Assembly (NCBI RefSeq): GCF_027271155.1
Contig: NZ_CP114542.1
Location: 2,775,001-2,839,000, forward strand
Direction of reading: 5' to 3'
DNA from: Brevundimonas subvibrioides
GTDB lineage: Bacteria > Pseudomonadota > Alphaproteobacteria > Caulobacterales > Caulobacteraceae
DNA: 64,000 nt
The position numbers and the translations under genes were made by a program. Of the stretch, positions 619-3,206 are shown piece by piece (position 1 is the stretch's first letter; every line of letters begins with the position of its first letter). The notes below the pieces were generated by a model, which saw only the letters and a program-made list of their open reading frames with translations, had not been told where the DNA came from and ran no database searches.

Positions 619-695
619 TGGCGGCCCCGGAGGGACTCCAACCCCCGACCTCGGCTTTAGGAAAGCCTTGCTCTATGCAGCTGAGCTACGGAGCC
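619..695 (-). tRNA. tRNA-Arg (anticodon CCT)
   Basis: Read on the minus strand this 77-nt segment folds as a tRNA. The acceptor stem is GGCTCCG/CGGGGCC, the D stem GCTC/GAGC, the anticodon loop TTCCTAA gives CCT, and the T stem is GGGGG/CCCTC. A discriminator G and an encoded CCA end it at 619. The outermost anticodon-stem pair (position 27/43) is an A-G mismatch. CCU reads AGG, a rare arginine codon in high-GC genomes. The only nearby 3' flank is the end of the DUF983 gene. Confidence 0.93.
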
Positions 696-917
696 GTTGG
701 CCGCGTCCTAGCGGGTCGCGCCGCAAGGGGAAAGATGGGCCCGGGATTTCGACGCCAGCGGACGGCCGTTTGCCCCTGTTGACCGAATCTTTTTTGTGGT
801 TAATAGGCATTAAGATACAATATCTTGGGGTGAACAAACCCCGAATCGAACGTGGTCGCCGATTCGGTCCTGATTCGTTTCCGCCCTGTTCCGCACTCGC
901 CTTGCTGGGCGTTAAGC
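696..917. other. Intergenic region with AT-rich stem-loops
   Basis: No convincing gene lies between the tRNA and the ubiquitin-like gene. A markedly AT-rich patch (about 785-845) holds two adjacent small stem-loops: AAGATA-caa-TATCTT (812-826) and GGGGT-gaacaa-ACCCC (827-842). They lie downstream of the ubiquitin-like gene on the minus strand and could end its transcript. Neither is followed by a clean U-tract in that orientation, so terminator function is only a guess. Confidence 0.35.
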
Positions 918-1217
918 TCAACGTCGGAGGATGAGAATGAGAGTGCTGTTCGCCTGAACGTTGTAGTCGGCAAGGGTGCGATTATCCTCCAACTCCCGAC
1001 CGGCGAAAATGATTCTCTGCCGGTCGCCGGGCACGCCTTTCTGATCCTGGACCTTGGTCTTGACGTTCTCGATAGTGTCACTGGGTTCGACCTGCAGAAC
1101 AATGACGCTGCGATCAGGCATCCTCAGAAACACCTCCATGGCGAATGCAGGGGACACGAAGGCCGTCATCACAGATATTGAGATGGCCAGGGCCCAGGCT
1201 TTCAGGGGTCGCATCAT
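918..1217 (-). CDS. Exported ubiquitin-like protein lacking the C-terminal Gly-Gly
   Basis: This 99-residue protein has a Sec-type signal peptide (residues 1-26: basic start MMRPLK, hydrophobic core, AFA cleavage motif) followed by a 73-residue ubiquitin fold. By hand alignment to human ubiquitin, 43 of 73 positions are identical, including [11 protein letters not shown] (17-27), IFAG (44-47), LED, RTL and DYN. Ile44 is kept, while Leu8 is Pro and Val70 is Ile. Lys48 and Lys63 are replaced (Arg, Ala); Lys27 and Lys29 remain. It ends after Arg73, so the Gly75-Gly76 used for conjugation is absent. The start at 1217 has GGAGA at 7-8 nt, and a promoter-like sequence lies just upstream. No E1, E2, E3 or deubiquitinase-like gene is visible nearby. 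Export follows from the signal peptide; function is unknown. A eukaryotic origin by transfer is plausible but inferred. Confidence 0.9.
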
Positions 1218-1243
1218 GAACAATCTCCATGTGTCAAAGCGGC

Positions 1244-1274
1244 AGGATAGTGTGGGGCCTGTTCGCCCTGTCAA
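1244..1274 (-). promoter_or_regulatory. Candidate sigma70-type promoter of the ubiquitin-like gene
   Basis: On the minus strand a perfect -35 hexamer TTGACA (1274-1269) and a -10-like TATCCT (1249-1244) are separated by 19 nt. Transcription would start near 1237, giving a leader of about 20 nt that contains the GGAGA ribosome site before the ATG at 1217. The spacer is slightly long, so strength cannot be judged by eye. Confidence 0.5.
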
Positions 1275-1389
1275 TCATGCCCGGGGCCGCCGCAAAAGTA
1301 TGCCGCCCGGGACCCGGTTGGAGCTCCCGCTGCATGGCCGAGCAGAATCTTCGAATTGACGCTCACTACGGCTGTTGAAAGAGCATCCA

Positions 1390-1830
1390 ATGACCCTCGA
1401 CGCCCTGTTCAACATCGCAAATCTGGTTGCCCTGGCCGGATGGATCATCCTCGCGTTCGCTCCGTTGCGACGAGGTGCGATCGTCGCGGCGGCACGCTGC
1501 ATCGTGGTCGCCCTGGCCGTCGCCTACACCATTCTTCTGGTCCAGGCGGTCGCGGGCGGCGGGCTGGGTGGCGATCTGACCACCCTGTCGGGCCTGACCG
1601 AAGGGTTCAGCCAGCCGCGCGCCGTGCTGGTCGGCTGGGTCCACTATCTGGCCTTCGATCTGTGGGTGGGATCCTGGGCGATCGAGGACGCGGGCAAGCG
1701 GGGCGTGCCGCACTGGGCCATGCTGCCGGTCCTGTTCCTGACGCTGATGGCGGGGCCGATCGGCCTGCTGACCTATCTGGTCGTCCGCGCTCGTCCTGGA
1801 CGTCAACAGCCGCCCGCGTTGACGACTTAG
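1390..1830 (+). CDS. ABA4-like (DUF4281) membrane protein
   Basis: This is a 146-residue polytopic membrane protein of the ABA4-like family, related to the plant protein ABA4 needed for neoxanthin formation; bacterial members are uncharacterised. Four hydrophobic segments are visible, at roughly residues 7-27, 33-53, 80-100 and 112-132. The conserved HYLAFDLWVGSW stretch (around residue 87) is typical of the family. The ATG at 1390 fits the family N-terminus (MTLDALFNIAN) better than an in-frame TTG at 1375. The host also encodes carotenoid genes about 39 kb away, but no functional link is shown. Confidence 0.75.
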   Translation: MTLDALFNIANLVALAGWIILAFAPLRRGAIVAAARCIVVALAVAYTILLVQAVAGGGLGGDLTTLSGLTEGFSQPRAVLVGWVHYLAFDLWVGSWAIEDAGKRGVPHWAMLPVLFLTLMAGPIGLLTYLVVRARPGRQQPPALTT

Positions 1831-1869: not shown

Positions 1870-2604
1870 ATGCCCCTGAAGCCATCCTGTCTGATCGTCG
1901 GTGCCGGAGACGGCGTAGGCTCCGCCATCGCCCGCGCCTTTGCCCGCGAGGGTCTGGCCGTGTGCATCACCCGGCGGCCGCGCAACCTGGCTCAGCTGGA
2001 AGCCGTCGCCGCCTCCATCCGCGCCGGGGGCGGCGAGGCCCATGCCTTCGGCGTCGATGCTCGCGTCGAAGCCGAAATGATCGCCCTGATCGACAGGATC
2101 GAGGCCGAGATCGGCCCGCTGCAGGTCGTGGTGTTCAACATCGGCGCGAACGTGCGCTTTCCCGTGATCGACACGACGGCCCAGGTCTATTCCAAGGTGT
2201 GGGAGATGGCGGCCCTGTCCGGCTTTTTCACAGGACGGGAGGCAGCGCGCGTCATGGCCCCGCGCGGCAAGGGGACGATCCTGTTCACCGGGGCGACCGC
2301 CTCGACGCGCGGCGGTGCGGGATTCTCGGCCTTTGCCGGGGCCAAGGCGGCGCTGCGCCAGCTGGCCCAGAGCCTGGCGCGCGAGATGGGACCGCAAGGC
2401 ATCCACGTGGCCCATGTCGTGGTCGATGGGATGATCGATGGCGTCTTCGCCCGCTCCATCGCGCCGGACATCCAGACCCTGCTGGACGAGGACGCGATCC
2501 TGAAACCCGACGAGATCGCAAGGAATTACGTCTGGCTGCACAATCAGCAACGCAGCGCCTGGACGTTCGAGCTGGACCTGCGCCCCTGGAAGGAAACCTG
2601 GTGA
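1870..2604 (+). CDS. SDR family oxidoreductase with Phe in place of the catalytic Tyr
   Basis: This 244-residue classical short-chain dehydrogenase/reductase has a Rossmann nucleotide motif GAGDGVG (residues 11-17) and an NIGAN version of the NAG motif (90-94). Ser145 lies at the usual catalytic serine region. The YxxxK motif reads FAGAK (155-159): the lysine is present but the tyrosine is phenylalanine. The same substitution occurs, as I recall, in a subgroup of proteobacterial SDRs of unknown substrate. The stop codon overlaps the GTG start of the next gene, suggesting co-translation with the DsbA-like enzyme. Confidence 0.85.
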   Translation: MPLKPSCLIVGAGDGVGSAIARAFAREGLAVCITRRPRNLAQLEAVAASIRAGGGEAHAFGVDARVEAEMIALIDRIEAEIGPLQVVVFNIGANVRFPVIDTTAQVYSKVWEMAALSGFFTGREAARVMAPRGKGTILFTGATASTRGGAGFSAFAGAKAALRQLAQSLAREMGPQGIHVAHVVVDGMIDGVFARSIAPDIQTLLDEDAILKPDEIARNYVWLHNQQRSAWTFELDLRPWKETW

Positions 2605-3206
2605 CCAAAACCGTCGACTTCATCTTCGATTTCGCCAGCCCCAACGGCTATTTCGCGCTCAAGGCCCTGAGGGGTGTCACGGAACGGACGGGAGCCCGGA
2701 TCAATCTGATCCCGTGCCTGCTGGGTGGATTGTTCAAGGCCACCGGCAACCAGGCACCGATGGTCGCGTTCGGCGGCATCAAGGGCAAGATGGACTATGA
2801 GATGCTGGAGATCCGCCGTTTCATCGCCCGGCACGCGCTGACTGCGTTCCGCATGAACCCGCACTTTCCGATCAACAGCCTGCTGGCCATGCGCGGCCTG
2901 TGCGCGCTCGAAGGCAGCCCGGATTTCGAACCCTACGTCGAGGCGGTCTCGGCTGGCTTCTGGGAGCAACGCCTGGCGATGGGCGACCCGGCCATCCTGG
3001 CCACCGTCCTGACCGGGGCAGGCCTTGATGCCGAGGCGATCCTGACGGCAGCACAGACCGATGCGGTCAAGGCGAGGCTGGCGGACAACACCGCCGCCGC
3101 TGTCGAACGCGGAGCCTTCGGCGTTCCCACCTTCTTCGTCGGCGACGAGATGTTCTTCGGCAAGGAACGGCTGGGGCAGGTGGAGGAGTTGCTGACGCAA
3201 GTGTGA
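2601..3206 (+). CDS. 2-hydroxychromene-2-carboxylate isomerase-like protein (DsbA/kappa-GST fold)
   Basis: This 201-residue protein belongs to the HCCA isomerase/kappa glutathione transferase branch of the thioredoxin superfamily. These enzymes isomerise aromatic degradation intermediates or conjugate glutathione. The N-terminus DFIFDFASPNGYFA carries the family's SPN/Y region in place of a CxxC, and GAFGVPTFFVGDEMFFGKERL near the C-terminus includes the cis-proline loop and the closing strand. Translation starts at GTG 2601, overlapping the SDR stop by 4 nt, with AAGGAAA upstream. The substrate is unknown. Confidence 0.85.
   Translation: MTKTVDFIFDFASPNGYFALKALRGVTERTGARINLIPCLLGGLFKATGNQAPMVAFGGIKGKMDYEMLEIRRFIARHALTAFRMNPHFPINSLLAMRGLCALEGSPDFEPYVEAVSAGFWEQRLAMGDPAILATVLTGAGLDAEAILTAAQTDAVKARLADNTAAAVERGAFGVPTFFVGDEMFFGKERLGQVEELLTQV

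Follow-up and report, generated by a model that had tools for sequence, protein, structure and literature searches.

Predicted exported ubiquitins in Brevundimonas subvibrioides and scattered relatives in other bacteria and phages

Ubiquitin, a tag that epitomizes the control of proteins in eukaryotes, also seems to have found a further use outside the cells of bacteria. One secreted bacterial ubiquitin, BfUbb of Bacteroides fragilis, is known as a toxin: it inhibits some conspecific strains and is potent as a synthetic mature peptide, whereas bovine ubiquitin is inactive, and the data suggest that no immunity protein is needed (PMC5705921). The same authors count B. fragilis as one of few bacteria with a ubiquitin gene (PMC5705921), and another report describes recombinant BfUbb as inhibiting ubiquitination and binding human E1 in vitro in a reducible covalent complex (PMC3352274). 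No exported bacterial ubiquitin other than BfUbb turned up with a known activity in the literature searched. Here, we analyze a stretch of 64,000 nucleotides from Brevundimonas subvibrioides (contig NZ_CP114542.1, positions 2,775,001 to 2,839,000; hereafter, the window), in which a gene on the minus strand encodes a ubiquitin behind a predicted Sec signal peptide (P0001, the window protein). The evidence puts this protein in a patchy, scattered set of exported, mostly conjugation-dead ubiquitins of several bacterial classes.

The window protein: fold, missing conjugation features, and surface

The gene and the parts of its product are as follows.

918..1217, minus strand: ubiquitin gene, 99 codons plus stop (TGA at 920-918), from translation and a PF00240 match
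1140..1217, minus strand: predicted Sec signal peptide, 26 codons, ending SPAFA, from sequence and hydropathy
921..1139, minus strand: mature 73-residue ubiquitin domain, ending LILILRR

The ATG start is preceded by GGAG, and the signal peptide, which had already been proposed in a sequence-only reading of this DNA, runs directly into ubiquitin Met1, with no linker between the two; from these features, we infer export and cleavage of the product. In a Pfam profile search, PF00240 matched the window protein at 81.2 bits, against a curated cut-off of 25.4, and 43 of the 73 mature residues (59%) are identical to human ubiquitin, which confirms the likeness to ubiquitin and the count given in the sequence-only reading. 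The protein is a true ubiquitin: NEDD8 or another modifier was considered and rejected, with only 27 and 24 of 73 positions identical and NEDD8 in a separate clade (100/100). An AlphaFold2 model built on a 30-row alignment reached a pLDDT of ~95 across the domain, and prediction from the single sequence one of 68.5 only. The model has the beta-grasp fold and superposes on human ubiquitin (1UBQ) at 0.5 A over 73 residues; by title, the 50 structural matches listed are all ubiquitins, ubiquitin variants, or ubiquitin-holding complexes, among which 5gok_B has an odd rmsd of 10.8.

Judged by its sequence, the window protein cannot take part in conjugation, which is ruled out by the missing Gly-Gly and the lost lysines. 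Because Gly75-Gly76 is absent, the protein could not be activated or conjugated, and because K48 and K63 are replaced (K48R, K63A), it would carry no K48 or K63 chains. In all, five of the seven chain lysines have been replaced (K6, K11, K33, K48, and K63); those left are K27 and K29, plus a new K34. The mature protein has no cysteine and would therefore not form a reducible covalent E1 complex of the kind that recombinant BfUbb formed in vitro (PMC3352274). The surface has changed as well. Three of the four residues of the I44 patch differ from human ubiquitin (L8P, H68I, and V70I), and the 16 core positions show five changes, all of them conservative (I3V, V5L, I30V, L43I, and I61V). Over 38 bacterial domains, a count that leaves out P0115 with its four-residue insertion, identity to human ubiquitin is 0.90 in the core, 0.75 in the other surface, and 0.70 in the I44 patch. 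This pattern would favor a selected fold with new contact surfaces rather than mimicry of eukaryotic contacts.

Distribution, C-terminal variants, and phage carriage

Homologs exist in the genus, with PF00240 matches in 6 of its 131 genomes. Matches were also present in 5 of 385 sampled genomes of the class, 1 of 398 of the phylum (the window's own genome), and 5 of 391 of the class of L002, a Pseudoflavonifractor record, this class being Clostridia; each of these sets contains the window's genome or the center genome. The 14 control genomes gave no PF00240 match in any of the genus, class, phylum, and L002-class searches. Two of 72,556 plasmid records matched, one from Ruminococcus albus (Clostridia) and one from Pseudoalteromonas shioyasakiensis (Gammaproteobacteria), and no ubiquitin match was obtained in GenBank phage records. 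A protein search scored 310 proteins, and the 120 matches listed mix eukaryotic and bacterial sequences, including a 'ubiquitin family protein' of Sphingomonas canadensis; further protein searches returned mostly eukaryotic polyubiquitin, with no closer bacterial relative among the 120 matches listed. Thus, the claim that B. fragilis offers the only close parallel has to be given up, exported ubiquitins being present in Alphaproteobacteria, Gammaproteobacteria, and Clostridia, and PMC5705921 itself already speaks of few bacteria rather than one. One genome (G896; L067:1243-2381, minus strand) carries two different signal-ubiquitin genes in tandem.

A common build recurs among 39 bacterial sequences picked by eye from the 120 listed proteins and the loci, a set whose fractions are not population estimates and are unweighted for relatedness. 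In 36 of them (P0115 judged by eye), the signal peptide is joined directly to ubiquitin residue 1, the exceptions being P0118, L064, and L073, and what follows the ubiquitin varies. Four congeners (G001, G023, G465, and G479) have an IPTL-CTERM tail (TIGR04174, above cut-off), for which the window protein gave no match. The autotransporter barrel PF03797 follows the ubiquitin in L009 and L013, and L010 resembles these two without a Pfam barrel match. SLH domains follow in L068, and in L073 (3971-8234, plus strand), on the Pseudoalteromonas plasmid, the ubiquitin domain forms the N terminus of a large Ig/cadherin protein. Sortase-like motifs were marginal in P0078 (NPXTG, 23.7 bits vs. 23.5) and P0112 (LPXTG, 16.8 vs. 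15.9), fell under the cut-off in P0085, and gave no match in P0055. From these domains, we infer that the tailed ubiquitins are anchored at the surface. The remaining, free forms either keep an RGG end (P0050, P0070, P0072, P0081, P0092, and P0118, with P0058 one residue longer) or have worn ends, as do the window protein, P0068 (RPRGD), P0115 (RRG), and L018 (RPRG). In L009 and L013 (genomes G323 and G227), where the ubiquitin is an N-terminal autotransporter passenger, a tRNA-Arg(CCG) gene lies ~215 bp away in both. Among the papers listed in literature searches, most subscription journals being outside their reach, we recognized none on bacterial ubiquitins that bear an exosortase tail, autotransporter barrel, or sortase anchor or that are carried by phages.

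The IPTL tail is associated with the exosortase XrtH (TIGR04177), which scored above cut-off in 14 of the genus's 131 genomes; a further, broken copy fell below it. XrtH is present in all four genomes with tailed ubiquitins and in G034, whose ubiquitin is tail-less, and the window's genome (G000) gave no TIGR04177 match. Its occurrence in 5 of the 6 ubiquitin genomes against 14 of 131 corresponds to a hypergeometric P of 3.8e-5, and that in 4 of 4 tailed genomes to 8.5e-5, both with no correction for kinship; with the like loci of G023 and G479 counted once, the value becomes 1e-3. XrtH occurs without the tail in G034, and 9 of the 14 XrtH genomes have no ubiquitin match, so the association can be called firm for tailed ubiquitins alone. 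An XrtH-like stretch with three stops was seen in a congener without a ubiquitin match (G482:C1:2650339-2650626).

The tailed form is also carried by phages. A single-sequence scan of IMG/VR gave no ubiquitin match, and an alignment scan gave six loci. At three of them, the product is the same 129-residue signal-ubiquitin-IPTL protein, which shares 81% identity with its G465 counterpart.

L074:2379-2768, plus strand: phage signal-ubiquitin-IPTL gene
L075:2042-2431, plus strand: phage signal-ubiquitin-IPTL gene
L076:1857-2246, plus strand: phage signal-ubiquitin-IPTL gene

TIGR04174 was above cut-off in both phage proteins tested (L074 and L076). In all three loci, the gene lies upstream of genes for the terminase small subunit, terminase large subunit, and portal protein (PHROGs). 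L076 is 93% identical to L074 across the ubiquitin-to-packaging stretch; L075 is 99.5% identical in the 2.7 kb surrounding this gene, but its terminase genes are of another set, and two packaging modules are thus found next to the ubiquitin gene. Two genomes of the genus, G460 and G511, neither of them among the six ubiquitin genomes, encode proteins with 88-89% identity to the L074 terminase. The prophages of G460 and G511 align on both sides of the phage ubiquitin gene but not across it, with much of the 1-1.5 kb around the gene also unaligned; this gap and the terminase kinship identify the tailed ubiquitin as optional phage cargo, and the phages that bear it probably infect this genus. At loci L074-L076, the form seen on phages is the IPTL-tailed one. 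Another of the viral loci, L078, is a 132-kb contig with a ubiquitin that has no evident signal peptide.

Genomic setting and origin of the gene

The genome, complete in a single contig of 2,973,988 bases, contains the ubiquitin gene once. The gene has a GC content of 0.56, against 0.679 for the window, and a GC3 of 0.71, against 0.857 for the nearby dehydrogenase gene. The surrounding features are as follows.

619..695, minus strand: tRNA-Arg (CCT), found with ARAGORN, 222 bp from the end of the ubiquitin gene
794..894, unstranded: conserved intergenic block common to congeners, the left flank of the empty site
917..1808, unstranded: segment with the ubiquitin and ABA4-like genes, absent at this site in four relatives, edges approximate
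1390..1830, plus strand: gene for an ABA4-like membrane protein (PF14108), in the same segment as the ubiquitin gene and divergent from it
1870..2604, plus strand: short-chain dehydrogenase gene, the right flank of the empty site
2601..3206, plus strand: DsbA-like protein gene, after whose counterpart the G034 ubiquitin gene sits

In three relatives (G022, G012, and G014), the conserved block runs to about window position 894 and is followed by ~65 bases and then by a match to the window from 1809 or 1830 onward, which covers the last ABA4-like codons and the dehydrogenase gene; the last codons of the ABA4-like frame may thus be part of the older flank. G034 likewise has no segment at this site, with a gap of 50 bases, so that the flanks of the empty site are about 50-66 bp apart in the four relatives. 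Both flanks were seen together in 3 of 36 compared relatives and in G034, the other relatives being uninformative. Insertion of the segment in the window lineage is a simpler reading than its loss in the others. Only a few bases separate the ubiquitin stop codon from the segment's left edge. The ABA4-like gene (1390-1830) is a possible partner of the ubiquitin gene; ABA4-like genes were found in 3 of 22 congeners searched, at other places and with 27-37% identity. PADLOC-DB models (2023 library) assigned no family to the window protein, L015, or the ABA4-like protein.

G034 has another tail-less ubiquitin gene ~2 kb from the tRNA, between DsbA-like and helicase-like genes; its ubiquitin is ~30% identical, while the flanking DNA is 75-87% identical and two neighboring proteins are 90-91% identical. 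More generally, a tRNA gene lies within ~225 bp of the ubiquitin gene at 5 of 10 loci (the window and L019-L027, from the class and genus searches), at distances, with gene starts approximate, of 222 bp in the window, 154 in L020, 133 in L021, 213 in L024, and 220 in L027. The last two have the same tRNA-Arg(CCG) and probably represent one event. At L023 and L026, tRNAs are 1.7-2.0 kb away, and L022 and L025 have no tRNA near the ubiquitin gene. At L019 (1544-3083, genome G023), a tyrosine integrase beside a 46-bp match to the tRNA-Val of L020 adjoins the ubiquitin gene and likely marks an island boundary. Integration into the tRNA itself at the window was considered and is unsupported, with no direct repeat involving the tRNA in 550-2000.

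In a tree of 54 domains and 73 columns, in which 32 of 51 inner branches are open, the bootstrap is unsettled, and BfUbb is not included, the window protein groups with another short signal-peptide protein, P0115 (99/94), as its sister. Another supported group (100/95) unites L002, L010, L011, and L070. Among single-domain PDB matches, L011 scored best with 5xy3_m (132.8 bits, the next being 119.9), the ubiquitin of the Trichomonas ribosome entry 5xy3. The four carry a distinct, HITLEVEPTDRIEDVK-like ubiquitin, perhaps an independent capture from a parabasalid protist. The tree suggests at least two captures of ubiquitin by bacteria. Approximately unbiased (AU) tests rejected neither one bacterial clade (39 bacterial vs. 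10 named eukaryotic rows, two NEDD8; p=0.108) nor the grouping of the six proteins of the genus (p=0.069), the four IPTL forms (p=0.314), or the window protein with L018 (p=0.172). For the acquisition from a eukaryote envisaged in the sequence-only reading, a eukaryotic ultimate source is the natural reading, and the direct step is unsupported: given the sister P0115 and the relatives in congeners and phages, a relay between bacteria is at least as likely as direct eukaryotic transfer. The window protein is best read as a horizontally spread extracellular ubiquitin.

Possible function and comparison with known systems

The chances seem even that bacteria have repeatedly captured eukaryotic ubiquitin as an extracellular display module, with a Sec signal set at Met1 and the Gly-Gly tip either swapped for the anchor of the lineage (IPTL, sortase motif, autotransporter barrel, SLH, or Ig-like stalk) or left free; that, in this genus, it travels as phage cargo; and that the window protein is the free, diffusible form. 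As for what the window protein does, the reading that we prefer, with roughly even chances, is a secreted antagonism factor like BfUbb, acting noncovalently. The Sec pathway would export the ubiquitin, signal peptidase would trim it at or near Met1, and a stable 73-residue monomer would be released into the periplasm and probably the medium. Cleavage at Met1 would leave a product that begins MEVFL and has a mass of ~8.41 kDa. With no Gly-Gly, it would act only through its folded surface, by binding an extracytoplasmic partner, most likely a protein from related competitors, and the resulting antagonism by a small secreted factor would be comparable to that of BfUbb. The tail-less form of the window would then be the diffusible counterpart of the IPTL-CTERM form, which is probably attached to the surface in congeners. 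A 2024 report reportedly identifies a target of BfUbb in the periplasm; our reading does not draw on it.

Several observations weigh against such antagonism. BfUbb ends in a cysteine, and the window protein has none. The anchored relatives (IPTL, autotransporter, SLH, and sortase-like) would not diffuse, and a purely secreted-toxin reading therefore does not cover the whole group. With 59% identity to human ubiquitin and 49% to the BfUbb structure, the window protein shows no special kinship to BfUbb from which a shared function would follow. XrtH accompanies a tail-less ubiquitin in G034, where loss of the enzyme does not explain loss of the tail. Finally, a scan of 700-1900 detected no sigma-70-type promoter, which is weak evidence.

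Instead of bacteria, the protein could face eukaryotes, as a decoy or ligand for the ubiquitin receptors or enzymes of amoebae, other grazers, or animal cells, much as the sequence-only reading had proposed for hosts or predators; we regard this as possible but doubtful. Ubiquitin is a eukaryotic protein, and the supported group of L002, L010, L011, and L070, with its presumed Trichomonas match, fits such a role, as do the inhibition of ubiquitination and the binding of human E1 by recombinant BfUbb in vitro, reported in PMC3352274. The window protein, however, has three of four I44-patch residues changed, has lost Gly-Gly, and has no cysteine for E1 capture, and the patch is kept no better than the other surface across the 38 bacterial domains (0.70 vs. 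0.75). It is improbable, in our estimate, that the protein is a relic, once displayed on the surface, deprived of its anchor when the segment was inserted, and drifting without a job since then. That four congeners have the IPTL tail and XrtH and the window's genome neither, that the stop codon is so close to the segment edge, and that the segment is absent at the site in relatives all agree with decay, but the frame, signal peptide, and ribosome site are intact, the five core changes are conservative and the fold is confident, and the other short worn-tip forms (P0115, P0068, and L018) suggest a repeated end state.

Hardly any credence is due to a sulfur-carrier or conjugating system (ThiS, MoaD, or Bil-like) exported by chance, or to contamination. 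Sulfur carriers have only the beta-grasp fold in common with the window protein and need the Gly-Gly that it lacks, and the 10 Pfam families that the search listed (E up to 1) include no ThiS or MoaD model, so their dismissal in the sequence-only reading stands. Contamination or an assembly error, which that reading had raised as a concern, is at odds with a single copy in a complete one-contig genome and with relatives in the genus, and was rejected.

If bacteria do display captured ubiquitin, lysogens would wear a phage-encoded ubiquitin, which could serve in competition with bacteria or phages or shield the cells from grazers. Natural variants with and without a tail provide material for testing the role of ubiquitin outside cells, and a genus with 6 ubiquitin genomes among 131 and with empty sites is a clear genetic system.

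Compared with known systems, the window protein shares with BfUbb (PDB 8hm2) a signal peptide directly before Met1, the absence of a terminal Gly-Gly, the ubiquitin fold (0.8 A between 8hm2 and the window model), and a gene carried by only some members of the group; it differs in sequence (49% identity), in phylum and genetic site, and in ending RR. The IPTL ubiquitins of the four congeners and of phage loci L074-L076 likewise combine a signal peptide with ubiquitin in the same genus (by the probable host, for the phages) but continue into a C-terminal sorting tail, with XrtH encoded in the four congener genomes, whereas the window protein stops at residue 73. L009, L013, L068, L073, P0078, and P0112 resemble it in that the mature form of the exported protein begins with ubiquitin, and differ in being longer, apparently anchored, and from other taxa. 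Eukaryotic ubiquitin has the same fold, from which the window protein departs in its predicted export, lack of Gly75-Gly76, five replaced lysines, and altered I44 patch. Plant-parasitic nematodes secrete ubiquitin effectors that, according to the B. fragilis report, also have a signal peptide before ubiquitin but are eukaryotic and bear a short C-terminal extension (PMC5705921).
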